Source of the DNA: Synechococcus sp. GreenBA-s
Lineage (GTDB): Bacteria > Cyanobacteriota > Cyanobacteriia > PCC-6307 > Cyanobiaceae
DNA: 60,837 bases
Direction of reading: 5' to 3'
Assembly (NCBI RefSeq): GCF_024345855.1
Contig: NZ_JAGQBX010000012.1
Coordinates: forward strand, 1-60,837
Numbering within the stretch: position 1 is the stretch's first letter; every line of letters begins with the position of its first letter. Of this stretch, positions 8,738 through 49,619 are shown piece by piece. The notes under the pieces are model-generated. The model made no database searches. It saw only the letters and a program-made list of their open reading frames with translations, and had not been told where the DNA came from. The translations under genes and the position numbers were made by a program.

Positions 8738-9090
8738 GCCGCCGTGGCCTGGGCTCCCGGCCAGCCCCTCGAGATCACCACGGTGGATGTGGCGCCGCCC
8801 TGGAGGCGTGCCACAAGGGCTGGGGGGAATCCACAATCATCGGTGTGGCCGGTGCCCGCCAGGAGATCAGCACCCGTCCCTTCCAGCTGGTGACGGGCCG
8901 GGTGTGGCGCGGTTCGGCCTTCGGCGGCGTGCGCGGCCGCACGGAGCTGCCGCTCTACGTGGAGCGGGCGCAGAGGGGGGAGATCCCGCTGGACCCCTTC
9001 ATCACCCACACCATGGGCCTGGAGGACATCAACGAGGCCTTCGCGCTGATGCAGGCCGGCAAGAGCATCCGCACGGTGATTCACTTCTGA
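8738..9090 (+). pseudogene. frmA: Remnant of S-(hydroxymethyl)glutathione dehydrogenase (class III ADH)
   Basis: Two ends of one gene remain. From 8738 a frame reads AAVAW...[12 protein letters not shown], the start of class III alcohol dehydrogenase. At about 8795 the match jumps, in a different frame, to the C-terminal ~90 residues ([17 protein letters not shown] through the family's normal end TVIHF, stop 9088-9090). About 250 central residues, including the catalytic zinc and NAD-binding regions, are absent. The junction lies in a short GCGCCGCC-type sequence, consistent with deletion between microrepeats. A second decayed gene of the same pathway, fghA, follows 54 nt downstream. Formaldehyde detoxification through glutathione is therefore lost at this locus. 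Confidence 0.85.
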
Positions 9091-33885: not shown

Positions 33886-34545
33886 TCACGGTGCAGCCGC
33901 CGGTTCCGTGGCCAGGCGGGCCAGGTAATCGTCCAGGCGACCGGCGTTGATCCAGCCGGTGGCGATCGTCTTGCTGTGGCTGTGGCTCACCCGGCCCCGG
34001 TGGATGTGGGAGAGGCCCGCCGGGAAGATCACGAGCTTGCCCCGCTCCGCCTCCTCGTGGTGCTCCTGCCAGTGGAACTCGGTGCCGCCCTCCGGCAGGG
34101 TGTCGCAGTAGAGGATCCAGGCCAGCACACGGCGAATCGGCTCCGTGGCCTCGTCGCTGGTGGTCCAGTCGCAGTGCCAGCTGCGGAAGCCCTCGCCGGG
34201 GGCGTAGCGCTGCAGGTTGAAGATCGGGTTCACGAACAGACTCTGCTCCGGGCAGCACTGGCGCAGCAGCGGCCGCTCCTGCAGGTAGCGGTTGAGGCCC
34301 GCCGTCACGCCGCGCAGGATCACCTCGGCCAGGGCGAAGGCCTCCGGATCGGAGCGGTCGATCGCCACCAGGCTGATGTCTGTGGAGATCTTGGCGGGTA
34401 CGGCCGCGGATTCGCCCCCAGCGCCCGCGTCGGGGCCGAAGGCGACGCCCGGGCGCTGCAGATCCAGGCGGCGATCGAAGAAGGCCATCACCCCGTCGGC
34501 CAGGGCCTCGAAGCCGGCGTTGCGGTAGCTGGCGATCAGGCGCAT
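33886..34545 (-). CDS. 2-oxoglutarate/Fe(II)-dependent oxygenase (prolyl-4-hydroxylase-like)
   Basis: A 219-residue enzyme. The iron triad is visible as H124 and D126 in SWHCDW, and H182 in SHIHRGR, with K192 (HSKTIATGW) placed to bind 2-oxoglutarate. The PIFNLQRYAPGEGF segment before the first ligand is typical of this group. The substrate is unknown and may be a protein or a small molecule. The start at 34545 overlaps the upstream gene's stop region by 10 nt, so the two probably work together. The gene is about 3 kb from the GlnT/Rieske region, but I see no direct link to it. Confidence 0.85.
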   Translation of the reverse strand: MRLIASYRNAGFEALADGVMAFFDRRLDLQRPGVAFGPDAGAGGESAAVPAKISTDISLVAIDRSDPEAFALAEVILRGVTAGLNRYLQERPLLRQCCPEQSLFVNPIFNLQRYAPGEGFRSWHCDWTTSDEATEPIRRVLAWILYCDTLPEGGTEFHWQEHHEEAERGKLVIFPAGLSHIHRGRVSHSHSKTIATGWINAGRLDDYLARLATEPAAAP

Positions 34546-37139: not shown

Positions 37140-38456
37140 TCAGCCATCCAGCCCTGTGTGACGCTCCCATTCCGTCACCTCAGCGCGATACTCCTGCCAC
37201 TGACGACGGCGCAGGCGTTCGTAGGCGCTGCAGAACGCTTCACCGAGGGCGGCTCGCAGCACGGCATCCTGACCAAAGGCCTCGAGGGCTTCACCCAGAT
37301 CGCTGGGCAGATGGCCGAAACCGGGAGACTGCAGGGGCTCAGCAAAGTTGTCATTGTCGTGGCGCGGGCCTGGTGAGAGCTGGCGCTCGATCCCATCGAG
37401 GCCCGCAGCCAGCACGGCGGCCTGGAGGATATAGGGATGGGCGGCACCATCGGGGAGGCGCAGTTCCAGGCGTTGGTCGTCAGGAATGCGCACCATGTGG
37501 GTGCGGTTGTTGCCGGTGTAGCTGATCCCAGCCGGCGCCCAGGTGGAGCCGGAGGTGGTGGGGGGTGCCGACAGTCGCCGGTAGCTGTTCACGCTGGGGT
37601 TCGTGAGACAGCACAGGGCCGGGGCATGGGCCAGCAATCCCGCCAGGAAGTGATAGGCCAGCGCCGACAATCCCAGCGCGCCGCCTGGATCGTGAAAGAG
37701 ATTGCGGCCGGCCTGGGCCGTGCCGGCGGCACCCCAGAGCGACAGATGGGTGTGGCAGCCATTGCCGGTGCGATGGGCAAAGGGCTTGGGCATGAAGCTG
37801 GCGCGCAGCCCCTGCTCCTCCGCCAGCGACTTCACCATCACCTTGAAGAAGGCGTGGCGATCGGCCGTGGTGAGGGCATCGGCGAAGGTCCAGTTGAGTT
37901 CAAACTGACCGTTGGCATCTTCGTGATCCGCCTGGTAGGGCCCCCAGCCCAACGCCTCCATCGCCTCCAGCAGCGGCGCCACCAGGGGGTAGTGACGCAT
38001 CAGGGCGAGCTGGTCGTAGCAGGGCTTCTGCTGGGTGTCGGCGCGATCGGCGGGCGCCTCACCGCTGGGATCCAGCAGAAAGAACTCGGCCTCCACCCCA
38101 CTGCGCAGCTCGAACCCCAGGGCCTGGGCCCGCTCCTGCTGACGGCGCAGCAGGCGCCGGGGGCACTGGGCCATCGGCTCGCCATTCAGCAGCAGCTCCG
38201 TGGCCACCCAGCCCACCTCGGGCTGCCAGGGCAACGGCATCAGGCTGGCGGGATCGGGCACCGCCATCACATCGCCATCGGCCGGAGTCAGGTCGAGCCA
38301 GGCGGCGAAGCCCGCAAACCCGGCACCCGCGGTGGCCATCCCCTCCACCGCTGAGGCCGGCACGAGCTTGGCCCGCTGCACGCCGAACAGGTCGGTGAAG
38401 GACATCAACAGAAAGCGGAGGCCCCGCTCTTTCATCAGGCCAGCGAGATCAGCCAT
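37140..38456 (-). CDS. glnT: GlnT-type glutamine synthetase-like ligase 1
   Basis: A 438-residue member of the glutamine synthetase superfamily, GlnT (type III) branch. Catalytic features are kept: VEAEFFLL (metal Glu, 122-129), HEDANGQFE (178-186), FMPKP (221-225), GNGCHTHLS with His235, NPSVNSYRR (286-294) and the nucleotide/glutamate arginine region VRIPDDQRLELR. Members form a gamma-glutamyl amide from glutamate, ATP and either ammonia or another amine; the substrate here is not predictable. It ends a three-gene minus-strand unit with the desaturase and alpha/beta hydrolase (45-nt gap). A distinct paralog sits in the guanidine operon at 45345. Confidence 0.85.
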   Translation of the reverse strand: MADLAGLMKERGLRFLLMSFTDLFGVQRAKLVPASAVEGMATAGAGFAGFAAWLDLTPADGDVMAVPDPASLMPLPWQPEVGWVATELLLNGEPMAQCPRRLLRRQQERAQALGFELRSGVEAEFFLLDPSGEAPADRADTQQKPCYDQLALMRHYPLVAPLLEAMEALGWGPYQADHEDANGQFELNWTFADALTTADRHAFFKVMVKSLAEEQGLRASFMPKPFAHRTGNGCHTHLSLWGAAGTAQAGRNLFHDPGGALGLSALAYHFLAGLLAHAPALCCLTNPSVNSYRRLSAPPTTSGSTWAPAGISYTGNNRTHMVRIPDDQRLELRLPDGAAHPYILQAAVLAAGLDGIERQLSPGPRHDNDNFAEPLQSPGFGHLPSDLGEALEAFGQDAVLRAALGEAFCSAYERLRRRQWQEYRAEVTEWERHTGLDG

Positions 38457-38501
38457 GGACGCTCTGCAAGGAACAACAACAAGAACAAGGAGCCGGGACC
38501 G

Positions 38502-39503
38502 TCAGCCGGCGAGGAGCTGATCCACGACCTGGCGCAGCTGCTGCTGTTCCGGTGGGCTGCTGTGGGGATTGCCGGCGCGATGGCCCAGGATCGACGCGAT
38601 CACGTGCAACTGGGCGCCGGGGATGGCGGCGGCATCGGCAGCCAAATCATCCGGCGTGAAGTAGAGATCGTGGCTACCAGCCACGATCGCCGTGCGGGCC
38701 TGAAGGCCTCCCAGCACGGCCTCCAGATCACCGCCAGCGGCCACATCGTGGGCCATCCAGGTATCCAGCATGGCGATCAGATCGCGGGGATCATGGCGCT
38801 GGTAGTGGGGCAACCACTGGCGCTCCACGTGCTCCTCCATCGGCTCGGCGATGGTGCGGAAGAAGGGCTGACTGGCGGCCCAGCTAGCGTAGATCAGGGC
38901 GTAGGTGCGCAATCCCTGGTCGGGGGTGGCCTCGAATCCCTCGCCGTTCCAGTGGCGATCAGCCGTGAGGGCCTGCCGCAGGCTGAGGCAGAAGAGGCGG
39001 TTGTGGGGGGAGGTGCGGGCACTGCCGCACACACAGCAGATCCGCTCCACCAGCTCGGGATAGTCCACGGCCCACTGGTAGGCCTGCTGGGCGCCCATCG
39101 ACCAGCCGTAGATCAGGGGGAGCCGTTCCACGCCGAACAGCTCCGCCAGCAGCTGCCGCTGGGCGGCCACATTGTCGTGATGACGGACGATCCAGCCCTG
39201 CTCGGCCAGGCCCATGGCTCCGTGGCTGGGGCTGCTGGAGGCTCCGTTGCCGAACATGCCGGCGATCACGATGCACCAGCGCTCGGGATCGAGCACCGGC
39301 CCCGCCAGCCAGGCCAGATCCTCCGGCCGGGCGCCGTAGGAGGTGGGCACCAGGATCAGGTTGGAGCGATCGGCGTTGAGGGCACCGATCTGCAGATAGC
39401 TGATCTGGGCGTCGGGGATGGTGTGGCCGCAGGCCAGGGGCCAGGGGCCCAGGGCGTGCTCCTGCCGCTGGACGCGGGGGAGCGGAACGGTGACGGTGCT
39501 CAT
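38502..39503 (-). CDS. Alpha/beta hydrolase, homoserine O-acetyltransferase-like
   Basis: A 333-residue alpha/beta-fold protein in the MetX-like branch. The nucleophile elbow is YGWSMGAQQAYQW, with the acid likely in YFTPDDLA and the histidine in ILGHRAGNP. Typical MetX features around SYLQIGALN and GARPEDLAWL are present, but overall sequence and length point to a paralog rather than the methionine-pathway acyltransferase. It may be an acyltransferase, esterase or amide hydrolase. Its ATG overlaps the desaturase stop by 4 nt (ATGA), which links the two functionally. Confidence 0.8.
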   Translation of the reverse strand: MSTVTVPLPRVQRQEHALGPWPLACGHTIPDAQISYLQIGALNADRSNLILVPTSYGARPEDLAWLAGPVLDPERWCIVIAGMFGNGASSSPSHGAMGLAEQGWIVRHHDNVAAQRQLLAELFGVERLPLIYGWSMGAQQAYQWAVDYPELVERICCVCGSARTSPHNRLFCLSLRQALTADRHWNGEGFEATPDQGLRTYALIYASWAASQPFFRTIAEPMEEHVERQWLPHYQRHDPRDLIAMLDTWMAHDVAAGGDLEAVLGGLQARTAIVAGSHDLYFTPDDLAADAAAIPGAQLHVIASILGHRAGNPHSSPPEQQQLRQVVDQLLAG

Positions 39504-40456
39504 GCCGGCAGGCCCAGGGCCGGCAGCTGGGTCAGCAGCTGCCGGTGCACCTGCAGGTAGCCGTGGTCGAGGTGCTTCAGGTGGGGGGCGATGTGCCCAT
39601 GGGCCGCCGGCAGGGCGTGGAAGGGCAGCGAGGCGTAGAGGTGGTGCTCGGCGTGGAAGGGCATGTTCCACATCAACCAGCGCACCGGAGCGCTGGTGAG
39701 GGTGGTGCGGGTGTTGGCGGTGCCATCGCTGCTGAAACTGCAACCGGTGTGCTCCGCCAGCAGCACAAAGCGCAGGAAGGGCTGTCCCAGCGCCAGCGGC
39801 AGCAGCCAGTACCAGAGCAGAAAGCCGTTGCCGCCGATCAGCGACAGCGCCGCCAGCACCGCATAGACGCTGCACTGCAGCCAGATGGAGCGGCGCACCT
39901 TGGGGATCAGCTCGGCGTTGAGATAGGGCACCGCCGAGAGGTCACCCCAGAGCAGCCGGGCGGTGCCCCGCAGCTTGCCGGTCCACCAGTTCCAGCCGCT
40001 CAGCTCCAGCAGGTAGCCAACGGGAGTGGTGGGCAAGGGATCCTCCAGCTCGGGATCCAGCCCCGGCTGGTGGGCATAGCGGTGGTGCCACTGGTGGTAG
40101 CGGCGGTAGGCGGTGGCGTTGTAGAAGCTCAGCAGACCCAGCAGCCAGGCCGCCGCATCGTTGGCCCAGCGGCTCTTGAAGGCGGTGCGGTGGCTGCACT
40201 CGTGCAGCCCGGCAAAGCAGGTGGCCAGGCCCACGCCGCCCAGCAGCAGGCCGACCAGCCGCAGGGCCAGCGGCCAGCCGGACTGGGCCCACACCAGGCC
40301 GCCGGCGGTGATGGTGACCAGGTGGCTGAGCAGGCGCAGGGCGGCCGGCCCGTTGCGCAGCTGGTTGAGGTCGGCCAGCGCCTGACGGGGAATCAGGCCG
40401 GAGCTGGCGGCGACAGGGGCAGTCAAGGAGGGTGGGCAGGACTGGATCCAGTCCAC
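39500..40456 (-). CDS. Membrane fatty-acid-desaturase-type di-iron enzyme
   Basis: A 318-residue membrane protein from GTG 40456. Histidine boxes are HECSH, HQWHH and HAEHH, of the FADS/beta-carotene-hydroxylase type rather than the DesC type found near 4-6.6 kb. Membrane spans flank them as usual. Substrates in the superfamily include acyl lipids, carotenoids, amino-acid derivatives and alkanes, so specificity cannot be stated. It begins the unit desaturase, hydrolase, GlnT-like 1. Upstream lies a 12-C homopolymer. An alternative TTG start is 11 codons in. Confidence 0.82.
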   Translation of the reverse strand: MDWIQSCPPSLTAPVAASSGLIPRQALADLNQLRNGPAALRLLSHLVTITAGGLVWAQSGWPLALRLVGLLLGGVGLATCFAGLHECSHRTAFKSRWANDAAAWLLGLLSFYNATAYRRYHQWHHRYAHQPGLDPELEDPLPTTPVGYLLELSGWNWWTGKLRGTARLLWGDLSAVPYLNAELIPKVRRSIWLQCSVYAVLAALSLIGGNGFLLWYWLLPLALGQPFLRFVLLAEHTGCSFSSDGTANTRTTLTSAPVRWLMWNMPFHAEHHLYASLPFHALPAAHGHIAPHLKHLDHGYLQVHRQLLTQLPALGLPA

Positions 40457-40514
40457 CAGCGGATGGGCCCGGCTTCGGTAGGCAATGGCACCGTTGCCGC
40501 CATCGCCCCCCTCG

Positions 40515-40526
40515 CCCCCCCCCCCC
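40515..40526. repeat. Homopolymeric C12 tract in a divergent promoter region
   Basis: Twelve consecutive C, preceded by a C6 run (40506-40511) and followed by a G7 run about 17 nt later, between the minus-strand desaturase start (40456) and the plus-strand gene at 40588. Such tracts are prone to slippage in replication and sequencing. Confidence 0.9.
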
Positions 40527-40587
40527 GCCGTGGCGGGCGTTGCGGGGGGGCTGCCAAGATTGCGCTCTGGAACCGCTGCAGCCGTTG

Positions 40588-40746
40588 ATGGCCACCACCG
40601 ATCCCCGCCGGCAGGCGATGGTGGATTCGCTCCGCAGTCGCTACGAGGAGGCCGAGCAGCAGCACGACGTCGAGGCCAAGCAGGCCCTGTTCAAGGAGGC
40701 GGTGTACCTGGGCATCCAGCCCGAGGAATTCACCCAGGCCAGCTGA
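40588..40746 (+). CDS. Small conserved cyanobacterial protein
   Basis: A 52-residue hydrophilic protein from ATG 40588, containing MVDSLRSRYEEAEQQHDVEA and KQALFKEAVYLGIQPEEF. The charged helical pattern is typical of short conserved picocyanobacterial proteins. It is 2 nt upstream of the TIM-barrel gene on the same strand, so cotranslation is likely. Function is unknown. Confidence 0.55.
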   Translation: MATTDPRRQAMVDSLRSRYEEAEQQHDVEAKQALFKEAVYLGIQPEEFTQAS

Positions 40747-40748
40747 CG

Positions 40749-41591
40749 GTGCCTGCCCCCCTGCTGCTGTTCAGCCTCTGGGGGTTTGCTGGCGATCTGA
40801 CCGCGGCCAGCGCCCTGGCCCGAAGCCATGGCTTCGACGGCCTGGAGGCCAACCTGGCCCACCCCGCCCTGGCGGCCCTCGAGCCTGGGGCCGTGGCCCA
40901 GCAGCTGGCGGCGGCCGGCCAGGCCCTGGTGCTGGAGCTGCTCACCGGCGGCGACTACGTGCCCCGGCTGGACTGCACCCCGGCCCAGCACCTGGAGGAG
41001 CTGGAGCGGCAGCTGGCGGTGGCGCCGGCCCTGGCGCCGCTGCGGATCACGGTGCTCACCGGCAGCGACAGCTGGCCCTGGCCGGTGCAGGAGCGCTTCT
41101 GGGGCCGGGCCCTGGAGCTGGCTGCCGCCTGCCCGCTGCCGGTGAGCTTCGAAACCCACCGCTCCCGCAGCCTCTACAGCCCCTGGTTGATCGGCTCCTA
41201 CCTGGAGGTCTTCCCGCAGCTTCGGCTCACCGCCGATCTCAGCCACTGGTGCGCGGTGGCGGAACGGCTGATGACCCCCGAGCTGGAGCCGGTGCGGGCG
41301 ATCGCCTCGCGGGTGGATCACATCCATGCCCGGGTGGGCCATGCCCAGGGCCCCTCGGTGGGCCATCCCTTCGCGCCCGAGTGGGCCGAGGCGTTGGCGG
41401 CCCACCGGCGCTGCTGGCAGCTGTTCGCCCGGGAGCGCTCGGCCGCCAGCCAGGGGTCGTTCACGATCACCCCGGAATTCGGCCCCGACGGCTACCTGCC
41501 GCTCTTGCCCTTCACCCGCCAGCCCGTGGCCGATCTGCTGGAGATCAATGCCGCCATGGCGGCGTGGCTGCAACGCCAGGTGCCGTGGTGA
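40749..41591 (+). CDS. Xylose-isomerase/AP-endonuclease-2-like TIM-barrel protein
   Basis: A 280-residue protein from GTG 40749. The pattern resembles the sugar phosphate isomerase/epimerase superfamily: FDGLEANLAH, LELLTGGDYVP, PVSFETHRSR with a metal-type Glu and His, LTADLSHW, and HIHARVGH, all consistent with a divalent-metal site in a TIM barrel. The substrate is unknown. It lies on the plus strand between two minus-strand units (desaturase unit and guanidine operon), and its last 47 nt overlap the 3' end of the Rieske gene in the opposite direction. Confidence 0.75.
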   Translation: MPAPLLLFSLWGFAGDLTAASALARSHGFDGLEANLAHPALAALEPGAVAQQLAAAGQALVLELLTGGDYVPRLDCTPAQHLEELERQLAVAPALAPLRITVLTGSDSWPWPVQERFWGRALELAAACPLPVSFETHRSRSLYSPWLIGSYLEVFPQLRLTADLSHWCAVAERLMTPELEPVRAIASRVDHIHARVGHAQGPSVGHPFAPEWAEALAAHRRCWQLFARERSAASQGSFTITPEFGPDGYLPLLPFTRQPVADLLEINAAMAAWLQRQVPW

Positions 41592-42645
41592 GGCCCTCGG
41601 GGGCCAGGTCGTCGAGCGCCATCCAGCTGACATAGAGGGCCTGCCACTGGAGGATGCGCTGCTCCAGGCGGTGGGCAGGCCCTGGCTGCAACCCACTGGC
41701 GTAGCCGCGTTGGGCCGATTCCACCAGACGCCGGTCTTCCTCCAGGAAGCGCTGCATCTCGGCCATCCAGGCCTCGGCGCCGTCGGCGTGCTGCTCCAGG
41801 CCCAGCAGCCACACCTCCATCCGGCAGCGATCCAGGGCTGAGGCCTCCGGCAGGAAGCTGATCAGGGCCAGACGGCCATCGGGCCAGAGCAGCAGGTGGG
41901 TCCAGGGGGCCAGGCCGAAGGTGAAGAAGGTGCCGCCCTCGCCCCAGGGGGTCGCCAGCAGGGTGCCGTGGCGGCTGAGGCCATGGCGGTAGTGGCGCAC
42001 CGGCCCCTGCTCACGGTGCAGGGTGCTCGGGTGGGCGATCGCCACGTGGTAGTCGTCAAGGGTGTTGTCGTGGGCCACCTTCCAGTTGCAGGCCAGGGGC
42101 CGCTGCTGCCGCGCCAGGAGCTGTCGGGGTTGGTCCCAGAGCGCGCCGGCCTCCGCCAGGACCAGATCCAGCTGTTGCTCCAGGGGCACCGGTTCGGGCC
42201 CGAGGGCCACCCAGATCAGCGGACCCAGCTGCCGGCAGGGCAGCTCCGCCAGGGGCCAGTCGTCGCGGCGGAAGGGCTCGAGGAACTCCCCCTCCCGGGC
42301 CGCCGCCCGCAGCTGACCCTGCAGGTCGTAGGTCCAGCCGTGGTAGGGGCAGATCAGGCGCCGGCACGGCTGGGCAGGGCCGTCGCCCTCCAGCAGGGCC
42401 ACGCCCCGGTGGGGGCAGCGGTTGAGAAAGGCCCGGGGCTGCTGGGGCCCCTCGCCGTCGGCCGGGCGGGTGATCAGCAGCGGCAGCTCGAGCAGCTCAC
42501 GGGCCAGGGCCTCGCCGCTGCCCAGCTCAGCGGTGGCGGCCACCGGGTGCCAGCAGTGGCCGGCGTAGTGGCTGCGCTCCCGCTGGGCAACGGCCGCAGA
42601 GCCGTAGACCCATCCGGGCAGAAAGCGGGCAGCGGGCAGCGCCAA
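41545..42645 (-). CDS. Rieske non-heme iron oxygenase, alpha subunit
   Basis: A 366-residue mononuclear-iron oxygenase. The Rieske [2Fe-2S] ligands are C77 and H79 (NRCPHRGVAL) and C99 and H102 (CPYHGWTYD). The catalytic iron motif DNTLDDYHVAIAH places H200 and H205, and an N194/D197-198 bridge, as in the family. Such enzymes hydroxylate or N-demethylate small substrates, and need a reductase that is not encoded here. TTG 42645 is the best start. The gene starts 24 nt after the ABC ATPase gene, making it the last member of the guanidine operon. It is not part of the known guanidine pathway. Confidence 0.9.
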   Translation of the reverse strand: MALPAARFLPGWVYGSAAVAQRERSHYAGHCWHPVAATAELGSGEALARELLELPLLITRPADGEGPQQPRAFLNRCPHRGVALLEGDGPAQPCRRLICPYHGWTYDLQGQLRAAAREGEFLEPFRRDDWPLAELPCRQLGPLIWVALGPEPVPLEQQLDLVLAEAGALWDQPRQLLARQQRPLACNWKVAHDNTLDDYHVAIAHPSTLHREQGPVRHYRHGLSRHGTLLATPWGEGGTFFTFGLAPWTHLLLWPDGRLALISFLPEASALDRCRMEVWLLGLEQHADGAEAWMAEMQRFLEEDRRLVESAQRGYASGLQPGPAHRLEQRILQWQALYVSWMALDDLAPEGLTTAPGVAATPPWRH

Positions 42646-42669
42646 CGGGGGGCCTCGCAGGTGATGGGA

Positions 42670-43440
42670 TCAGGTGGGGAGGGCAGGCTCCAGGCCGCGC
42701 AGGCACTGGGCCAGCTCCTCGCGCAGGTCGAGGAAGGGGCGGGAGAGCCGCAGCTGGCCCATGGCGGAGCGGTCGAGATCGACGGCCACGCTGCGCACGA
42801 TCCGCCCCGGAGAGGGGGCCATGATGTGCACTTGGCCGGCCAGCAGCAGGGCTTCCTCGAGGTCGTGGGTGATCAGCAGCGCCGTCAGGCCGGTGCGCTG
42901 CCACAGGTGGTAGAGAAACTCCTGCATCGACTCGCGGATCTGGATGTCGAGGGCGCCGAACGGTTCATCCAGCAGCAGCAGTTTCGGCTCGGCAGCCAGG
43001 GCCCGGGCAATGGCCACCCGCTGCTGCATGCCGCCGGAGAGTTCCCGCGGCAGCCGCCGGGCCGAATCGGCCAGGCCCACCACCTCCAAGAAGTAGGCCG
43101 TGCGCTCGCGAATCTCCTGGCGGCTGCGCCGTTGCAGTTCCATGCCGAAGGCCACGTTCTGCGCCGCCGTGAGCCAGGGGTAGAGGCTGTACTTCTGGAA
43201 CACCATGCCCCGATCGGAGCCGGGGCCAGTGATCGGGCGGCCATCGAGACTCACCACGCCGGAGCTGGGGGAGTCGAGGCCGGCGATCAGGCGCATCACC
43301 GTGGATTTGCCGGAGCCAGAGCTGCCCACCAGGGCCACGAACTCACCAGCGTTCACGTCGAAACTCACGTTGCGGAGCACCTCTTTGCGCTGGGCTCCGT
43401 AGCCGAAGCTCTTGCAGAGATTGGCAATCTGGAGATGCAT
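42670..43440 (-). CDS. ABC importer ATPase (nitrate/taurine-type, guanidine operon)
   Basis: A 256-residue ATPase of the SsuB/TauB/NrtD group. Walker A GSSGSGKST at 39-47, signature LSGGMQQR, Walker B LLLLDEPFGALD, and the H-loop in LITHDLEEAL are all intact. It powers uptake through the permease at 43451 with the binding protein at 44237. By operon context the substrate is probably guanidine or a related guanidino/amine compound. The gap to the permease is 10 nt. Confidence 0.92.
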   Translation of the reverse strand: MHLQIANLCKSFGYGAQRKEVLRNVSFDVNAGEFVALVGSSGSGKSTVMRLIAGLDSPSSGVVSLDGRPITGPGSDRGMVFQKYSLYPWLTAAQNVAFGMELQRRSRQEIRERTAYFLEVVGLADSARRLPRELSGGMQQRVAIARALAAEPKLLLLDEPFGALDIQIRESMQEFLYHLWQRTGLTALLITHDLEEALLLAGQVHIMAPSPGRIVRSVAVDLDRSAMGQLRLSRPFLDLREELAQCLRGLEPALPT

Positions 43441-43450
43441 GGTGGTGTGC

Positions 43451-44218
43451 TCAGGTGGCCCAGGCGCAGGCCCGACGCATCAGGGCGCGGAAGCCCAGAT
43501 CAATCACCAGGCCAATCAGACCAATCACAATCAGACCCATAAAGATCTCATCGGTTTTCAGGAAGCGCTGGGCCAGACTGATGCGCTTGCCCAGACCCTC
43601 TGTGGCCGCCACCAGTTCCGCCACGATCACCAGATTCCAGGCCGAGGCCATGTTGATCCGGTAGGTGTCGAGAACCTGGGGGGCGATGAAGGGGGCCACC
43701 ACCCGGGTGAGGATCGGCAAACCACGCCCCCCGAGGGTCAGGGCGGTTTCCACGAGCTCCCGGGGGACGAACTTCACCGCATCCATGATCATCAGCGTGT
43801 TGAAGAAGAAGGTGCCGATGAAGATCAGCAGCACCTTCGGCAGCTCCTCCAGGCCGAAATAGATGATCAACAGCGGGATGAAGGCGGGAGCCGGCATGTA
43901 GCGGATCAGGCCCATCAGGGGCTCCAGCAGGCGGCAGATCACCACGTTGGTGCCCATGGCGATGCCCACCGGCAGGGCCAGGCCAGCCGAGAGGGCAAAG
44001 CCGATGAACACCCGCTGGATGCTGGCGGCGGCATCCTTAAGCAGCAGGCCACTGCTCCACTGCTGCTGCCCGGCCTGCCACACCGCTTGCGGGGAGGGCA
44101 GGAAGAGCTTGTTCACCGTGCCGCTGGCGGCGATCAGGAACCACAGCAGCAGAACGATGCCGATCCCCAGGATGCCGAGGGCCCAGGGATGCCGGATCAG
44201 ACGACGGAACGCAGGCAT
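43451..44218 (-). CDS. ABC importer permease (nitrate/taurine-type, guanidine operon)
   Basis: A 255-residue inner-membrane permease with about six spans, including LGILGIGIVLLLWFLIA and VLLIFIGTFFFNTLMIM. The EAA-type loop is around VETALTLGGRGLPILTRVVAP. It belongs to the SsuC/TauC/NrtB group. It sits 18 nt after the substrate-binding protein gene and 10 nt before the ATPase gene. It likely forms a homodimer in the importer. Confidence 0.93.
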   Translation of the reverse strand: MPAFRRLIRHPWALGILGIGIVLLLWFLIAASGTVNKLFLPSPQAVWQAGQQQWSSGLLLKDAAASIQRVFIGFALSAGLALPVGIAMGTNVVICRLLEPLMGLIRYMPAPAFIPLLIIYFGLEELPKVLLIFIGTFFFNTLMIMDAVKFVPRELVETALTLGGRGLPILTRVVAPFIAPQVLDTYRINMASAWNLVIVAELVAATEGLGKRISLAQRFLKTDEIFMGLIVIGLIGLVIDLGFRALMRRACAWAT

Positions 44219-44236
44219 AACCAGGGGCTGCAGGTC

Positions 44237-45274
44237 TTATTTGGCGTTGTTCACAAACGTGGGGTTGAGCAACTGGCTCAGATCCGGCTTCTTCTTGGCC
44301 AGGCCCACCTCCACCAGGAAGGCGCTGATCTGCTCCGCCGCATAGGGGAGCGAGATCATGGTGGTGCCGGGCTTGAAGTTGGCCCGGTTCTGCTCCAGGG
44401 TCTGAATCGTGGTGCCGGCGTCGTAGGCCTTGAACTCCTGCTCCGACACCCCCGAGCGCGCCACCAGGATCGGCAAGGTGGCTGCCGGATCCTTCTTCAT
44501 CAACTGCAGGGTGGCAAACCAGGCATTCACCACCTGCTGAATCGCCTCGGGATTCTTCTCCACAAACTCGCGGCGGCACACCAGCAGGTCGCTGATGGCG
44601 CCAGGGTGATCGCTGGAGGTGACGAGGGCCTTGCTACCGGCCCGCTTGAGGGCCTGGGTGGTGAAGGGGGCATAGACACCCACGGCATCCACCTGGCCCG
44701 CCGCGAAGGCAGCGGCAGCGGCACCGGTTTCCAGGGGAACAAAGGTGATGTCACTGGCCTGGAGGCCGCCCTCCTTGAGCACCTTCAGCAGCAGGTAGTG
44801 ATCCACCGTGCCCTCCTCGGCCGCCACCTTTTTGCCCTTGAGATCGGCCACGGATTTGATGCCCTCGGCCACGATGATCTGGTCGTTGCCGGTGGAGTAG
44901 TCGTTCTGCAGAACCACCTGCAGATCGGCGCCACCAGCGACCGAACTGATGGTGTCATTGAGGGTCTGGCTGTTGCAGTCCAGCTGGCCCGCATTGAGGG
45001 CATTGATGCTGTCGAGGTAGCCGTCAAACCACTGCAGCTTGGCGCTCACACCGGCGGCGCCGAACAGCCCCTTGGCCTCGGTGACCGCCCAGGGGAACCA
45101 GCCGGGCCAGGCGCTGTAGCCGATGCGCACGGCGGGACCTTCGCTGGCTGGCTTCTGACAGGCGGTGAGCAGGCCGGCGCCGAGGGCCGTGATCAGGGCC
45201 AGGGCCTTGAGACGCCGGCGGCGGGCCGGAGCTGGGCTGGTCGGAGCTGAGCTGGAACGGTGGGAACGCAGCAT
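44237..45274 (-). CDS. ABC importer substrate-binding lipoprotein (guanidine operon)
   Basis: A periplasmic NrtA/SsuA/TauA-like binding protein. From ATG 45274 it is 345 residues. The signal peptide ends in a lipobox LLTAC with Cys39 as the lipid-anchored residue. IGYSAWPGWFPWAVTEAKGL is the typical start of the mature domain, followed by the NDTISSVAGGADLQVVLQND and DLLVCRREFVEKNP segments. Ligand specificity is inferred from the operon: guanidine or a guanidino/amine compound. It follows glnT-like gene 2 with a 70-nt gap, which may hold a secondary promoter. Confidence 0.9.
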   Translation of the reverse strand: MLRSHRSSSAPTSPAPARRRRLKALALITALGAGLLTACQKPASEGPAVRIGYSAWPGWFPWAVTEAKGLFGAAGVSAKLQWFDGYLDSINALNAGQLDCNSQTLNDTISSVAGGADLQVVLQNDYSTGNDQIIVAEGIKSVADLKGKKVAAEEGTVDHYLLLKVLKEGGLQASDITFVPLETGAAAAAFAAGQVDAVGVYAPFTTQALKRAGSKALVTSSDHPGAISDLLVCRREFVEKNPEAIQQVVNAWFATLQLMKKDPAATLPILVARSGVSEQEFKAYDAGTTIQTLEQNRANFKPGTTMISLPYAAEQISAFLVEVGLAKKKPDLSQLLNPTFVNNAK

Positions 45275-45344
45275 GGCAAACAAGCGGTGGAAGTCGTGCA
45301 GTCAGCGGGTTAAGGACAGGGCGCGGGTATAGCGCTCCAGTGGC

Positions 45345-46703
45345 TCAGAAGAACTCCAGGTAGCGAGCCTGCTCCCAGTCGGATACGGCCGAGTGGTAGG
45401 CCTCCCATTCGCCCCTCTTGTAGTCGACGAAGGCCTCGAACATGGCATCACCAAATACGGTTCGCGACAGCGGATCAGCGGCAAAGGCGTCCACCGCCTC
45501 CCCCAGGGTGCGCGGCAGCCGATGCAGGCCCCGTTCGGCCCGCTCCTCAGCGCTGAGGGTGTAGGCATTCACCAGGTTGGGCGGGCCTGGATCCAGCTGC
45601 TCGCGGATGCCTTCCAGCCCGGCGGCCAGAATCATCGCAGCCCCCAGATAGGGGTTGCAGGAGATGTCGGCAGCCCGGCATTCCACCCGTCCACCCGGCG
45701 AGGGAATGCGCAGCATGTTGGTGCGGTTGTTGTTGCCGTAGCAGATGAACACCGGCGCCCAGGTGAAACCCGACATGCTGCCCTGGGCCACCAGCCGCTT
45801 GTAGCTGTTCACCGTGGGGGCGATCACCGCACAGATGGCTGGGGCATGGCGCAGCACCCCGGCGATGAACTGATGGGCCAGCGCACTCACCTGGCCAGGA
45901 GCCTTGTCGGCAGTTTCAAACAGATTGGCACCGCTGCTCAGATCCGCCAGCGACATGTTGAAGTGGGCGCCACTGCCGGTGCGATCGGCAAAGGGCTTGG
46001 GCATGAAACTGGCGATCAACCCATGCTGGTGGGCGATCTCCTTGGCCATCAGCCTGAAGAAGGTGAACCGATCGGCCATGGTGAGGGCCTCGGCGTAATC
46101 GAAGTCGATCTCGAACTGGCCGGGACCGTCTTCATGGTCGAAGGAATACACCCCCCAACCGAGTTCGTTCATGGCGCTCACCAGCTCATCGAGCCAGGGC
46201 AGGTTGTCGAGCAGGGTGCGCACGTCGTAGGCCGGTTTGTCCAGCGTGTCGCGTGGACTCAACGGCACCGCCCGCCCCTGGGCATCGCGCCGCAGCACGA
46301 AGAACTCGGTCTCGATGCCGAGGTTGAAGCGAAAGCCCATGGCCGCCGCCTGGGCCCGCACCCGGTGCAGGATGTTGCGGCTGCAGGCCTCAAAGGGCTG
46401 GCCGTGCAGGTGCAGATCACTGGCCATCCACACCAGCTCCCGCTGCCAGGGCAGCACGGTGGCCGAGGCCGGATCGGGCAGAGCCGCCACCTCGTCGTCG
46501 CTCATGTCCTGGGGGATGCCATCGAGGGCCGCCCCGGTGAACAGCTCCGAACCGCGCAGCATCTGGCCCAGATGGCTCAGCGGTACCGCCTTGGCCTTGC
46601 AGATGCCGTGCAGATCCACGTAGCTGGCGAGGGCGTAGCGCACCCCCTGTCTCTCGAGATCGCCCCGCAGGGTCTGGACATCGAGGGATTCGCTGCCGCT
46701 CAT
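45345..46703 (-). CDS. glnT: GlnT-type glutamine synthetase-like ligase 2 (guanidine operon)
   Basis: A 452-residue GlnT-branch ligase. Key elements: [10 protein letters not shown] (Glu131/133), HEDGPGQFE (190-198), FMPKP (233-237), GSGAHFNMS with His247, PTVNSYKR and a C-terminal [20 protein letters not shown]. The segment after His247 (HFN) differs from the HTH of paralog 1, hinting at different amine specificity. Its ATG overlaps the hypB stop by 4 nt (ATGA), so it is tightly embedded between nickel chaperone and transporter genes. It may capture ammonia released from guanidine as glutamine, or gamma-glutamylate an amine. Which of these is right is not known. Confidence 0.85.
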
Positions 46704-47407
46704 GCCAGCACCATCGCCGGGGTGAGCTGGGCGATCTGCTGGGCCAGCTGCTGGCGCACCCAGCTGTGCCAGGCCTCCAGGCCTTCGCCGGTGCTGGCGG
46801 ACACGCGGATCACGGTGCAGCGGGGATTCACGGCGCGGATGTGGGCTTCAATCCGCTCCACCTCCACCGGCAGATAGGGCAGCAGATCGGTCTTGGTGAT
46901 CAGCACACAATCGGCTTCTCGGAACATCACCGGGTACTTGAGGGGCTTGTCATCGCCCTCGGTGACGCTGAGCAGCGCCACCTTGCGGTGTTCGCCGACC
47001 TCAAACTCAGCCGGGCACACCAGGTTGCCCACGTTCTCCACCCAGAGCAGATCGAGGCAGGCGGGATCGAGCTGCTGCCTCAGCAGCTTCAGCCCGCCGC
47101 TCACCATCGCCGCATCCAGATGGCAGGCGCGACCGGTCGTGATCGGCACCACCGGTACCCCCACCGCCTCCAGCCGCTCGGCATCGAGCTGGGTGGTCAT
47201 GTCGCCCTCCAGCACGGCCATCGAGAGGTCGGTGGCCAGGGCGGCGAGGCTGCGCTCCAGCAGGGAGGTCTTACCGGCGCCAGGGCTGCTCATCAGGTTG
47301 ATGCACAGCAGCCGCCAGGCATCGAAGTGTTCGCGGTTGTGCTCAGCCTGGTGCTGGTTGGCGGCCAGCAGATTGAGGCCGAGCGTGTCTTCCAGGGGCA
47401 TGTGCAT
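46700..47407 (-). CDS. hypB: HypB-like nickel-insertion GTPase of the guanidine operon
   Basis: A 235-residue SIMIBI GTPase. Walker A is SSPGAGKTS at 40-48, Ni/Zn-binding C95-H96 and a further cysteine at 131 are in the usual places, and TKTD (171-174) gives guanine specificity. In the cyanobacterial guanidine system a HypB paralog (GhaB) and a HypA paralog (GhaA) load nickel into the hydrolase, and no hydrogenase gene occurs in this window. The start could be ATG 47407 or 47401. It is 8 nt after hypA. Confidence 0.93.
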
Positions 47408-47415
47408 GGCAGATC

Positions 47416-47811
47416 TCAGGAGGGAACAGGCGCGGGCTTCTCAGCTGGAACTGAGGCGGTGAGGGTGTAATCCACAGAGCGGATTCGCAGCTCCCGTCCA
47501 CTGACGACCTCCTCCATCGGGTGGTCGCAGCAGGGGGAGCGATAGGCCGACTCGGCACTGGGCCGGTAGGTGGCGGAGCAGCACACGCAGCGCCCCACCA
47601 GCGGGATGGCCTCAATGCTGAGGCGAGCCCCCTCCAGCCAGCTGCCGCGGATGGCCACATCCCAGGTGGTGACGAGCTGGGCGGGCTCCACACAGGTGAA
47701 ATCCCCTACCTGGAGATGCACCACCTCGACGCTGGGACTGACGGAGCCGTGCTGTTGCCTCCAGTCCTGCATGGAGAGCAGCAGGCACTTGGTCATGTCG
47801 ACTTCATGCAT
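47416..47811 (-). CDS. hypA: HypA-like nickel metallochaperone of the guanidine operon
   Basis: A 131-residue HypA-family protein. The N-terminal MHE supplies the nickel-binding His2. The zinc site is formed by C75-x2-C78 (with an additional C77) and C94/C95 with H97, a variant of the canonical four-cysteine ribbon. The C-terminus carries [11 protein letters not shown], typical of the family. It works with the HypB-like GTPase to insert nickel into GdmH. It starts 3 nt after the gdmH stop, so translation is coupled. Confidence 0.93.
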
Positions 47812-47814
47812 CGC

Positions 47815-49005
47815 TCACCTCCACTTCTGGTCGACATTCATGTTGCAGACGTCGCTGAGCCAGCTGGGCCGCTCCTTCCTGGGCAGCTGACCGCTCACCA
47901 CCAGATGGGCCATGGTGTCGCAGATCACGCGCGTGGCCATCAACGACGTCATGTCGCTGATGTCATAGGGAGGGGAGACTTCCACCACCTCAAGGCCGCA
48001 CACGGGAACGTTGCGAACGATCAGTTCCAGCAGCTTGAGGGCCTCCCGAGGCAGCAGGCCGCCCGGCTCAGGCCAGCCGGTGCCGGGCACGAAACCGGCA
48101 TCGATGCAGTCGATGTCGAAGGAGATGTAGACGCAGTCGGTGCCATCGGTGGCGCGTTCGATGGCGAACTTGGCCGCCGCCTCCAGGCCCATTTCGCAGA
48201 TGTCGGTGACGGTGAGCACGTTGGTGCCCCGCTCCCGGCAGACCTTCACCCCCTCGCGTGGCACCTGCCAGCCGCCGATCCCCAGTTGCACCAGGTTGTG
48301 GGCAGGGGCATTGGCCATGTTGGTGGCATGGAACCACGGGCAGGTATGCATCCGCTCGTCCAGATCGATCTCCTGGGTATCGACATGGCGATCGAAGTGA
48401 ATGATGCCCACCTTCTTGTCGCCCAGGTGGCGGCAGACACCGCGCACCGTGGGGAAGCCGATGGAGTGATCGCCCCCCAGGATGATCGGGAAGGCTCCAC
48501 TGGAGAACACATGGGCCACGCCCTTGGAGATCTGGTCGAAACTCTTTTCGTTGTTGGCGGGGATGGTGAAGATGTCGCCGACATCGCAGAGCGTGATCTG
48601 CTCCCGCAGATCCACGCCCATCTCGTAGTTGTAGGGCGTGTAGAGGGCCGAGATGCGGCGGATGCCCTGCGGGCCGAAGCGGGTGCCCGGCCGGTAGGTG
48701 GTGCCGCTGTCGTGGGGCACACCGAGAATGGCCACATCGAATTCGCCGACGCGGTTCACGTCCTCGATGTAGGGCGCCTTCATGAAGGTGTTGATGCCCG
48801 CGTAATGGGGCAGCTCACCGCGCGAGAAGGTGGAGATGCGTCGATCGATGATGCTCTCGGCAGCTTCCAGGCCATAGCGATGGGCCTGGTCCACTTCCTG
48901 CTGCCAGCCCGTCAGGGGCAGGGCCCGCTCTTTCTCGAGGGCCCGCAGTCCCTCAGTGGGATGCAAGCGTTCGAACGCCGCCGCAGCGTCTGAATCCTGA
49001 GCCAT
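47815..49005 (-). CDS. gdmH: Nickel-dependent guanidine hydrolase
   Basis: A 396-residue ureohydrolase that converts guanidine to urea and ammonia. Metal-binding elements: GGDHS (177-181), DRHVD (205-209) and FDIDCID (296-302), followed by the conserved PGTGWPEPGG. The insertions RMHTCPWFHATN and GGWQVPREG and the end NMNVDQKWR distinguish the guanidine hydrolase branch from agmatinases; the sequence closely follows the Synechocystis Sll1077 pattern as I recall it. Upstream is a guanidine-I riboswitch, downstream are hypA and hypB, and the importer is in the same operon. This is the known guanidine nitrogen-scavenging route. Note that urease is not in this window. Confidence 0.95.
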   Translation of the reverse strand: MAQDSDAAAAFERLHPTEGLRALEKERALPLTGWQQEVDQAHRYGLEAAESIIDRRISTFSRGELPHYAGINTFMKAPYIEDVNRVGEFDVAILGVPHDSGTTYRPGTRFGPQGIRRISALYTPYNYEMGVDLREQITLCDVGDIFTIPANNEKSFDQISKGVAHVFSSGAFPIILGGDHSIGFPTVRGVCRHLGDKKVGIIHFDRHVDTQEIDLDERMHTCPWFHATNMANAPAHNLVQLGIGGWQVPREGVKVCRERGTNVLTVTDICEMGLEAAAKFAIERATDGTDCVYISFDIDCIDAGFVPGTGWPEPGGLLPREALKLLELIVRNVPVCGLEVVEVSPPYDISDMTSLMATRVICDTMAHLVVSGQLPRKERPSWLSDVCNMNVDQKWR

Positions 49006-49025
49006 TGTGCTGGAGGGTTGGAGAT

Positions 49026-49124
49026 GGAGCGGTCTCCCGGGCTTTTATCCCTCCGTGCAGCCGGTGAACCCGACCGATACCTCTCGGACCTGACACTCCT
49101 GGATCAGGAGCCGGAACCCTAGGC
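49026..49124 (-). promoter_or_regulatory. Guanidine-I (ykkC) riboswitch upstream of gdmH
   Basis: On the minus strand the conserved cores appear in order: CTAGGGTTCCG (49112-49122), GGTCCGAGAG (49081-49090) and GGGATAAAAGCCCGGGAGA (49033-49051), matching the guanidine-I aptamer closely. It ends 20 nt before the gdmH ATG. No intrinsic terminator is visible after the aptamer. Instead three CTCC-type tracts (49026-49029, 49020-49023, 49012-49015) could pair with the aptamer's GGGAG. The gdmH start has no Shine-Dalgarno sequence. A promoter probably lies just upstream; AAGAAT near 49128-49133 could serve as -10. Confidence 0.95.
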
Positions 49125-49194
49125 ATTCTTTCCGCTCGTTGACTATGGAACTGGGGTCGTGGGGTGGCGGTACCAGGGGATACCGAATCCCATC

Positions 49195-49368
49195 TCAGTG
49201 CTGATGAGAGCCGCTGTGGCTGTGGTCCTGGGCCTGCTGGGCCGCAGGGTTGGACTGATGCTTCGGCTGGTGATGATCTGGATGGGCCTGAGCGGAAGGC
49301 GCGAGCCCCAGGGCCAGCGCGGAGAGCACAGCCAGTCCGAAAGTGTGTCGGGACACAGTTCGGGACAC
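49195..49368 (-). CDS. Small exported His-rich peptide
   Basis: A 57-residue frame from GTG 49368 (GTG 49356 also possible), ending 70 nt upstream of the riboswitch on the same strand. It has a signal peptide (FGLAVLSALALGLAPSAQA) and a mature part of about 29 residues with eight histidines (HPDHHQPKHQ ... DHSHSGSHQH). The composition suggests binding of nickel, zinc or copper in the periplasm. Position next to a nickel-enzyme operon suggests nickel buffering or supply, but this is inference. It is too short to be assigned to a family. Confidence 0.55.
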   Translation of the reverse strand: MSRTVSRHTFGLAVLSALALGLAPSAQAHPDHHQPKHQSNPAAQQAQDHSHSGSHQH

Positions 49369-49547
49369 AGTGTTGAGCCGGGACAACGGGAAAGGCGTCA
49401 GAGGCGGGCGCGACCGTATCGGCGCGGCGGCCCCAACCCGGTGGCCGTTGTTACCGACGGGGCCGGCCTTGCCATCCACCTGATCACCCACCGTGGCGGT
49501 TCCGCAACGGCCTGCCCCGCCCGATGGCCAGGGGCGAGGAGAAGCGA

Positions 49548-49619
<72 letters not shown>

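Follow-up and report, generated by a model that had tools for sequence, protein, structure and literature searches.

The 60,837 nt stretch of DNA described here (hereafter the window; contig NZ_JAGQBX010000012.1, assembly GCF_024345855.1) comes from the lake cyanobacterium Synechococcus sp. GreenBA-s and carries a guanidine hydrolase operon extended by two genes, one (glnT2) for a putative gamma-glutamyl ligase and one for a Rieske non-haem iron oxygenase. The operon is a single collinear unit on the minus strand (49133–41545), in which a Guanidine-I riboswitch and eight close-packed genes, gdmH through to the Rieske gene, would be co-transcribed. The intergenic gaps range from −4 nt (hypB/glnT2) up to 61 nt if the binding protein gene starts at its TTG, or 70 nt if it starts at the ATG. 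A first-pass annotation of this DNA had set out the same riboswitch-to-Rieske series, and each feature that it named is present on the minus strand, with gaps that match, the one of 70 nt included.

The riboswitch aptamer (Guanidine-I or ykkC; 49032–49133) lies 26 nt 5′ of gdmH and matches the full Rfam model RF00442 (positions 1–107) at 89.4 bits, above the gathering score of 63; it is the single match in the genome (E 0.001), and the motif also precedes gdmH in relatives, five of which were aligned. The gdmH gene (47815–49005; PF00491, 261 bits) encodes the nickel-dependent guanidine hydrolase, its product matching PDB entries 7esr/7oi1, deposited as probable agmatinase 2, at 765 bits over 382 residues. 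It is followed by hypA (47416–47811; PF01155, 84 bits), encoding a nickel metallochaperone, and hypB (46700–47407; TIGR00073, 284 bits, cut-off 121), encoding a nickel insertion GTPase, with which glnT2 (45345–46703; TIGR03105, 567 bits, cut-off 470) overlaps by 4 nt. An ATP-binding cassette (ABC) importer comes next, comprising a substrate-binding protein of the SsuA/Tau type (44237–45283, alternative ATG at 45274; TIGR01728, 241 bits, cut-off 163.5), a permease (43451–44218; PF00528, 74 bits) and an ATPase (42670–43440; PF00005, 121 bits). The Rieske gene (41545–42645; PF00355, 57 bits, and PF00848, 53 bits), which has a TTG start, closes the unit. A promoter scan of 40400–49600 found no promoter-like site, and the three terminators found there equal the chance expectation of 3.0.

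The riboswitch, gdmH, hypA, hypB and the SsuA-type importer thus occur together, which bears out the identification of the cyanobacterial guanidine hydrolase system made in the first-pass annotation, and a urease is found in the source genome. These are also the components shared with the guanidine hydrolase operon of Synechocystis (sll1077 and its neighbours), whereas glnT2 and the Rieske gene belong to the GreenBA-s operon; the Rieske gene has been named as a difference from the Synechocystis cluster (PMC10119275). The nearest named relative met in our scan of named genomes was Vulcanococcus limneticus LL (L087), with a Rieske protein 94% identical; the available text of a paper on V. limneticus (PMC5902973) names neither guanidine nor Rieske. 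Two contigs (L129 and L133) from metagenome-assembled genomes titled Bifidobacterium breve and Acidiferrobacteraceae bear cyanobacterial-type gdmH operons and are probably misbinned.

Distribution of the two added genes

We surveyed 151 genomes of the family to which the source belongs, 292 genomes from across the phylum, and the best 80 of 121 loci from a scan of named genomes; the last were found by peptide patterns taken from the operon sequences and are therefore biased towards the Rieske clade of GreenBA-s. Within the family, gdmH is present in 55 genomes and the Rieske gene in 37, and all 37 Rieske-positive genomes carry gdmH (hypergeometric p 6e-22; this and the other co-occurrence p-values computed, 5e-12 and a Fisher p of 0.027, ignore shared ancestry). 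The position of the gene is equally constant, its start falling between −17 and 45 nt past the ABC ATPase gene in every one of the 36 fetched family loci that contain it. It comes straight after that ATPase gene in 79 of the 80 named loci, and in the lone exception (L137) the contig stops within the Rieske gene. In 66 of these loci gdmH is seen, and the remaining 14 all start at a contig end. The 66 include 21 of a set of 27 loci (L140–L166), 25 of them titled Prochlorococcus and two uncultured Synechococcaceae. In the phylum sample, Rieske matches above 250 bits occur in 13 genomes, all gdmH-positive; a further 11 genomes with weaker matches (<115 bits) were excluded from the count. Outside the family there are four strong matches, two at the end of a gdmH operon (G204 and G269) and two on a separate contig (G212 and G313). 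The neighbourhood of gdmH and the Rieske gene is thus conserved in other genomes, as the first-pass annotation had proposed should be checked, and the extension of the guanidine operon is real and recurrent.

The riboswitch is less evident in the Prochlorococcus loci. No Guanidine-I riboswitch was found in L140 or L144 at the gathering score, no guanidine riboswitch was found upstream of gdmH in L144 by an Rfam search at E up to 1, and a strict Guanidine-I motif matched none of L140–L166. Both L140 and L144 have a Glutamine-II riboswitch some 5 kb past their Rieske gene, on the downstream side (L140:15963–16025 and L144:16273–16335).

The ligase gene is also tied to gdmH. All 31 family genomes with glnT2 have gdmH, and in the fetched loci glnT2 lies between hypB and the binding protein gene; the sole close relative outside the family (G311, 68%) is encoded in a gdmH operon lacking a Rieske gene, with hypA on one side and hypB on the other. 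The two additions are found in all four combinations. Three of the 55 gdmH genomes (L056, L084 and L085) were dropped before scoring for cut or broken operons, leaving 52 scorable loci (50 fetched, the window, and G047, whose operon is split across two contigs; the last two were entered by hand as positive for both genes). Both additions are present in 26, the Rieske gene only in 11, glnT2 only in five and neither in ten (the Fisher value given above). At E 1e-50 a type-III ligase match is lacking from nine of the 11 Rieske-only genomes; one of those nine (G097) is only 82% complete. No glnT2 occurs in any of the 27 loci L140–L166, and in G032 (L078) a remnant of glnT2 stands next to a Rieske frame of 337 aa. 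One of the ten loci with neither gene keeps a glnT2 remnant. Decay of glnT2 is seen in L067 and L078, where a remnant is left, and in L075, whose glnT2 contains an in-frame stop; gdmH is still full length in these loci. The two genes are gained and lost independently, and because the Rieske gene occurs without glnT2 or any type-III ligase match, the product of a GlnT enzyme cannot be the general substrate of the Rieske enzyme.

Relationships of the Rieske protein

An alignment of 56 Rieske sequences (the window plus 55 of 78 usable named-locus sequences) gave an AlphaFold model with a pLDDT (predicted local distance difference test score) of 88.3. The fold closest to this model is that of the carnitine monooxygenase CntA (Z 33.8, root-mean-square deviation 2.4, 332 aligned residues), followed by stachydrine demethylase (Z 31.2), so that the protein stands nearest to oxidizers of amines; the CntA/Group V profile is also its best profile match (130 bits). 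The cluster ligands C77, H79, C99 and H102 and the iron triad H200, H205 and D304 are invariant (56/56). The hallmark residues of Group V (defined in PMC10952381 and PMC7948474) are, in contrast, replaced in all 56 sequences: the Group Va aromatic (Tyr203 of CntA) is T195, and D198 and V201 occupy the places of the Cys-x-x-Cys that some members have by the iron. The bridging Glu205 of CntA is an Asp in the Rieske protein. In the absence of the pi-cation aromatic and the Cys pair we reject membership of the quaternary-ammonium Group V; the operon differs from the CntA system also in having no reductase gene. By motif alignment D198 corresponds to Cys206 of CntA, the residue that the substrate's ammonium points to (PMC10952381; PMC7948474), and on that alignment it would be a plausible partner for a cation bearing NH groups.

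A Rieske tree was built from 14 of the 36 family loci and three of the 27 loci L140–L166, together with Rieske proteins from elsewhere in the cyanobacteria, leaving out L182, L192, L193 and four duplicate loci. It places the picocyanobacterial proteins, Prochlorococcus included, in one clade (100/100), sister to a clade comprising G204, G269, G212 and G313 (99/97), and the remaining cyanobacterial Rieske proteins in the sample are separate from both.

Relationships of GlnT2

The best PDB match of GlnT2 is the glutamate–methylamine ligase 9qur (396 bits), ahead of GmaS 7cql (336 bits) and of glutamine synthetases (271.5 bits and lower). The first-pass annotation had called for a phylogeny of the GlnT proteins, and in our tree GlnT2 forms a clade of its own (98/100), sister to GmaS-like ligases, which include the second ligase of the window (GlnT1, discussed below), with the glutamine synthetases outside. 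Fourteen alignment positions split the proteins without exception into three classes: GlnT2 (30/30 family sequences, leaving out the broken frame of L075 and the short L085, together with L211 from G311), GmaS-like (14/14 GlnT1 and 11/11 others) and glutamine synthetase-like (15/15). Most of these positions have been named as active-site residues (PMC7948447). The catalytic residues Asp177, Glu186 and Arg312 of GmaS are kept in GlnT2 as D189, E198 and R327 (30/30 and L211), as are the Lys and the Trp flap, W315 aligning with Trp300 of GmaS, which stands in for the catalytic flap Glu of glutamine synthetase (PMC7948447). The methylamine site, in contrast, is altered: Gln175 and Asn188, conserved in 14/14 GlnT1 and 11/11 other GmaS-like proteins, are S187 and D200 in 30/30 GlnT2, with Phe for Trp189 and Thr for Ala48. 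The equivalent of the ammonium-binding Asp50, which is D in 15/15 glutamine synthetase-like proteins, is T56 in 30/30 GlnT2.

These residues suggest that GlnT2 is a gamma-glutamyl ligase with an acceptor other than ammonia, and not clearly methylamine either. It could be supposed instead that GlnT2 is an ordinary glutamine synthetase, assimilating the ammonia released by GdmH, as the title of TIGR03105 (type III glutamate–ammonia ligase) and the presence of Asp200 and Phe201, as in true glutamine synthetases, would allow. We consider this rather improbable, since the ammonium-binding Asp is replaced by Thr, the flap residue is Trp as in GmaS (for the roles of both see PMC7948447) and the GlnT2 clade is sister to the GmaS-like ligases. 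That GlnT2 makes only glutamine, which the first-pass annotation had named as grounds for abandoning its proposal, is accordingly unlikely.

The neighbouring desaturase–hydrolase–GlnT1 unit

The first-pass annotation had also reported a second unit nearby, and a desaturase, a hydrolase and GlnT1 are indeed encoded on the minus strand at 40456–37140, separately from the riboswitch unit. The first gene (39500–40456; PF00487, 127 bits) encodes a membrane diiron enzyme of the FA_desaturase family, which has a weak match to the guanitoxin arginine hydroxylase GntB (48 bits, cut-off 380). The second (about 38502–39497, with the open frame starting further upstream at 39875; PRK07581, 337 bits, cut-off 332) encodes a MetX-like alpha/beta hydrolase, and the third, glnT1 (37140–38456; TIGR03105, 609 bits), a GmaS-like gamma-glutamyl ligase. 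The best PDB match of GlnT1 is GmaS 7cql (565 bits), and the Q, D, E, N and W set of catalytic and methylamine-site residues is present in 14/14 GlnT1 sequences. Plus-strand open reading frames (ORFs) separate this unit from the Rieske gene, and GmaS-like type-III ligases are present in six genomes with no gdmH match, so we reject the three genes as part of the riboswitch unit. Apart from the window, 13 of the 54 gdmH loci fetched have the three genes together; they look like an independent module and could constitute an alkylamine pathway. Elsewhere in the window, 7 kb from the Rieske gene, a 219-aa ORF (33886–34545, minus strand) has a weak 2-oxoglutarate (2OG)-Fe(II) oxygenase domain (33.7 bits, cut-off 27).

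Discussion

The association of a Rieske gene with guanidine hydrolase has been published: a Rieske gene (CK_00002251) lies downstream of the guanidinase cluster in most of the Synechococcus and Cyanobium genomes that bear the cluster, with iron suggested as a cofactor (PMC10119275). The available part of that paper proposes no substrate for the Rieske protein. The clusters that it describes (Pro-eCAG_004 and Syn-eCAG_001) have the same core genes as the GreenBA-s operon and share with it, in most of those Synechococcus and Cyanobium genomes, a downstream Rieske gene; they differ in that the operon contains GlnT2, while the term glutamine synthetase has no occurrence in the main text of the paper. 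Elsewhere, hypA, hypB and ABC genes are given as operon partners, with Rieske absent from the available text (PMC8390497). Several glutamine synthetases (glnA and glnN1-4) have been listed for freshwater picocyanobacteria in a paper that does not contain the word guanidine (PMC9361551), and these may include GlnT2 under another name. A link between GlnT2 and guanidine or its hydrolase was not found in a literature search from which supplements, preprints and most subscription papers were excluded. What we did not find in print, then, is a separate GlnT2 clade and the mutual independence of glnT2 and the Rieske gene.

The operon as a whole would serve to scavenge guanidine nitrogen, with the riboswitch sensing guanidine, the ABC importer taking it up, nickel-loaded GdmH hydrolysing it to urea and ammonia, and the urease encoded elsewhere in the genome acting on the urea. 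Our current working hypothesis is that an N-substituted guanidine, once imported, is hydroxylated by the Rieske enzyme at its N-alkyl carbon, with electrons drawn presumably from photosynthetic ferredoxin, and that the resulting hemiaminal would collapse to an aldehyde and guanidine, the latter becoming available to GdmH. The first candidate substrate would be methylguanidine, giving guanidine and formaldehyde. GlnT2 would act in parallel with the Rieske enzyme and not ahead of it, catalysing the ATP-dependent gamma-glutamylation of an amine or guanidine acceptor that is not ammonia and probably not methylamine. We put forward guanidine-releasing dealkylation as the role of the Rieske enzyme tentatively, at somewhat short of an even chance, and methylguanidine as its specific substrate with less confidence again. 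The first-pass annotation had suggested that the added genes might allow substituted guanidines or other amines to be processed; of this, a role with substituted guanidines survives as the likeliest reason for the Rieske gene, its linkage to gdmH being strong, and the order of reactions borrowed from aniline degradation does not.

Two published observations are consistent with dealkylation. Urea was undetectable when a related comammox guanidinase was supplied with methylguanidine, which in its authors' view agrees with earlier work on the enzyme of cyanobacteria (PMC11410670); on that footing a demethylase would be needed by any cell that took up methylguanidine. In Vreelandella boliviensis, a 2OG dioxygenase and a lyase (MgdH/MgdL) encoded in a guanidine-riboswitch operon demethylate methylguanidine, and the class-I switch of that operon leaves methylguanidine unbound up to 1 mM (PMC12508155). 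Both operons are guanidine-riboswitch operons with an ABC importer extended by an oxygenase; in Vreelandella, however, a 2OG-Fe(II) dioxygenase is joined to the guanidine carboxylase pathway, whereas in GreenBA-s a Rieske enzyme is joined to guanidine hydrolase. The phylum genome G212 provides a further clue. Its Rieske gene belongs to a separate set on a contig other than that of gdmH (L196:7363–11906), in the order binding protein, permease, isochorismatase-like hydrolase, ATPase, Rieske; the set has no guanidine riboswitch match, and the nearest model to its hydrolase is biuret amidohydrolase (91 bits, below the cut-off of 370). As the gdmH operon of G212 retains an importer and riboswitch of its own, and the Rieske set has another importer, guanidine itself is probably not what the Rieske enzyme acts on there.

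A number of observations weigh against the dealkylation hypothesis. The expected link to formaldehyde detoxification is lacking: full-length glutathione-dependent formaldehyde dehydrogenase is present in 17 of 37 Rieske-positive and nine of 18 Rieske-negative gdmH-positive genomes, and the only match in the source genome is a C-terminal remnant (98 of 368 positions, 8794–9087), which closely follows a gene judged by eye to be dnaB. Given the absence of this link, a larger N-alkyl group yielding another aldehyde is possible. There is no reductase gene in the operon. In the fold comparison stachydrine demethylase is level with terephthalate dioxygenase (Z 31.0), and the Asp at the place of D198 is also found in a Rieske protein outside the clade (L188), so that it is not clade-specific. 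In the sister clade (L176, L177, L178 and L179) the bridging carboxylate is replaced by Cys (motif NTLCDYH), and two members of that clade, G204 and G269, nonetheless carry the Rieske gene in gdmH operons. Cys at this place is unusual among Rieske oxygenases. With regard to GlnT2, the pocket residues Asp200 and Phe201 may be ancestral rather than fitted to guanidinium, being those of true glutamine synthetases too.

Of the other explanations for the Rieske gene, the one that fares best is that larger guanidino compounds (guanidinoacetate, guanidinobutyrate, agmatine or one resembling arginine) are the source from which the enzyme frees guanidine, with release of a multi-carbon aldehyde. Known guanidine-forming enzymes (ethylene-forming enzyme and plant homoarginine-6-hydroxylase) hydroxylate beside the guanidino nitrogen, and guanidinium toxins are substrates of two other Rieske enzymes, SxtT and GxtA. 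Such a reaction would account for the missing formaldehyde dehydrogenase link, and SxtT and GxtA do appear in the fold comparison, at a distance (Z about 20.7). The importer family, however, is that of known guanidine operons, and no gene of the operon is obviously suited to aldehydes of this kind, and we regard this explanation as unlikely.

A smaller chance attaches to the possibility that the Rieske protein acts on guanidine itself or, following the published suggestion, merely adds a dependence on iron. In the published account the Fe-S protein is offered as a possible reason why the cluster is missing from low-iron waters (PMC10119275). Against this, both additions are lacking in ten of the 52 scorable loci, so that the Rieske protein is not needed for a guanidine operon; Synechocystis degrades guanidine, with the Rieske gene named as a difference from its cluster (PMC10119275); and the Rieske protein of G212 has a transporter of its own.

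That the additions are passengers, co-inherited by chance and with no role in guanidine metabolism, would fit their independent losses but not the fixed place and tight spacing of the Rieske gene across divergent genera, Prochlorococcus included, nor the presence of gdmH in every one of the 37 Rieske-positive genomes, and we hold it to be very improbable.

In pathways of the AtdA type, an amidotransferase-like hydrolase, a small oxygenase subunit and a reductase accompany the ligase and the oxygenase. Slimmest of all is the chance that such a sequence operates here, with GlnT2 glutamylating an amine, the Rieske enzyme oxidizing the gamma-glutamyl product and a hydrolase freeing glutamate, for although ligase and Rieske types share one operon and tend to co-occur (26/11/5/10), 11 of 37 genomes keep the Rieske gene with no glnT2, five of 31 have glnT2 with no Rieske gene, glnT2 is wanting from the 27 loci L140–L166 and a remnant beside the Rieske frame of G032, and neither the hydrolase (amidase), the small subunit nor the reductase is found among the genes of the unit, to which the search was limited. 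As an obligatory route this order is ruled out by the nine of 37 Rieske-positive genomes that lack, at E 1e-50, any type-III ligase match.

Guanidine has only lately been recognized as a nitrogen source. It is interesting to consider, as a speculation that we think unlikely to hold in full, that picocyanobacteria including Prochlorococcus dealkylate guanidines by means of a Rieske enzyme, a non-homologous counterpart of MgdH, and that many of their lineages add a novel type of gamma-glutamyl ligase, which takes guanidine or a substituted guanidine as acceptor and forms gamma-glutamylguanidines, thereby storing or detoxifying a chaotropic source of nitrogen. GlnT2 offers a second and independent handle on this biology, as a ligase clade met in the sampled genomes only beside guanidine hydrolase. 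If dealkylation is indeed the role of the Rieske enzyme, then for phototrophs of great abundance in seas and fresh waters the nitrogen of N-alkyl guanidines, methylated or other, would be worth the cost of an iron enzyme.

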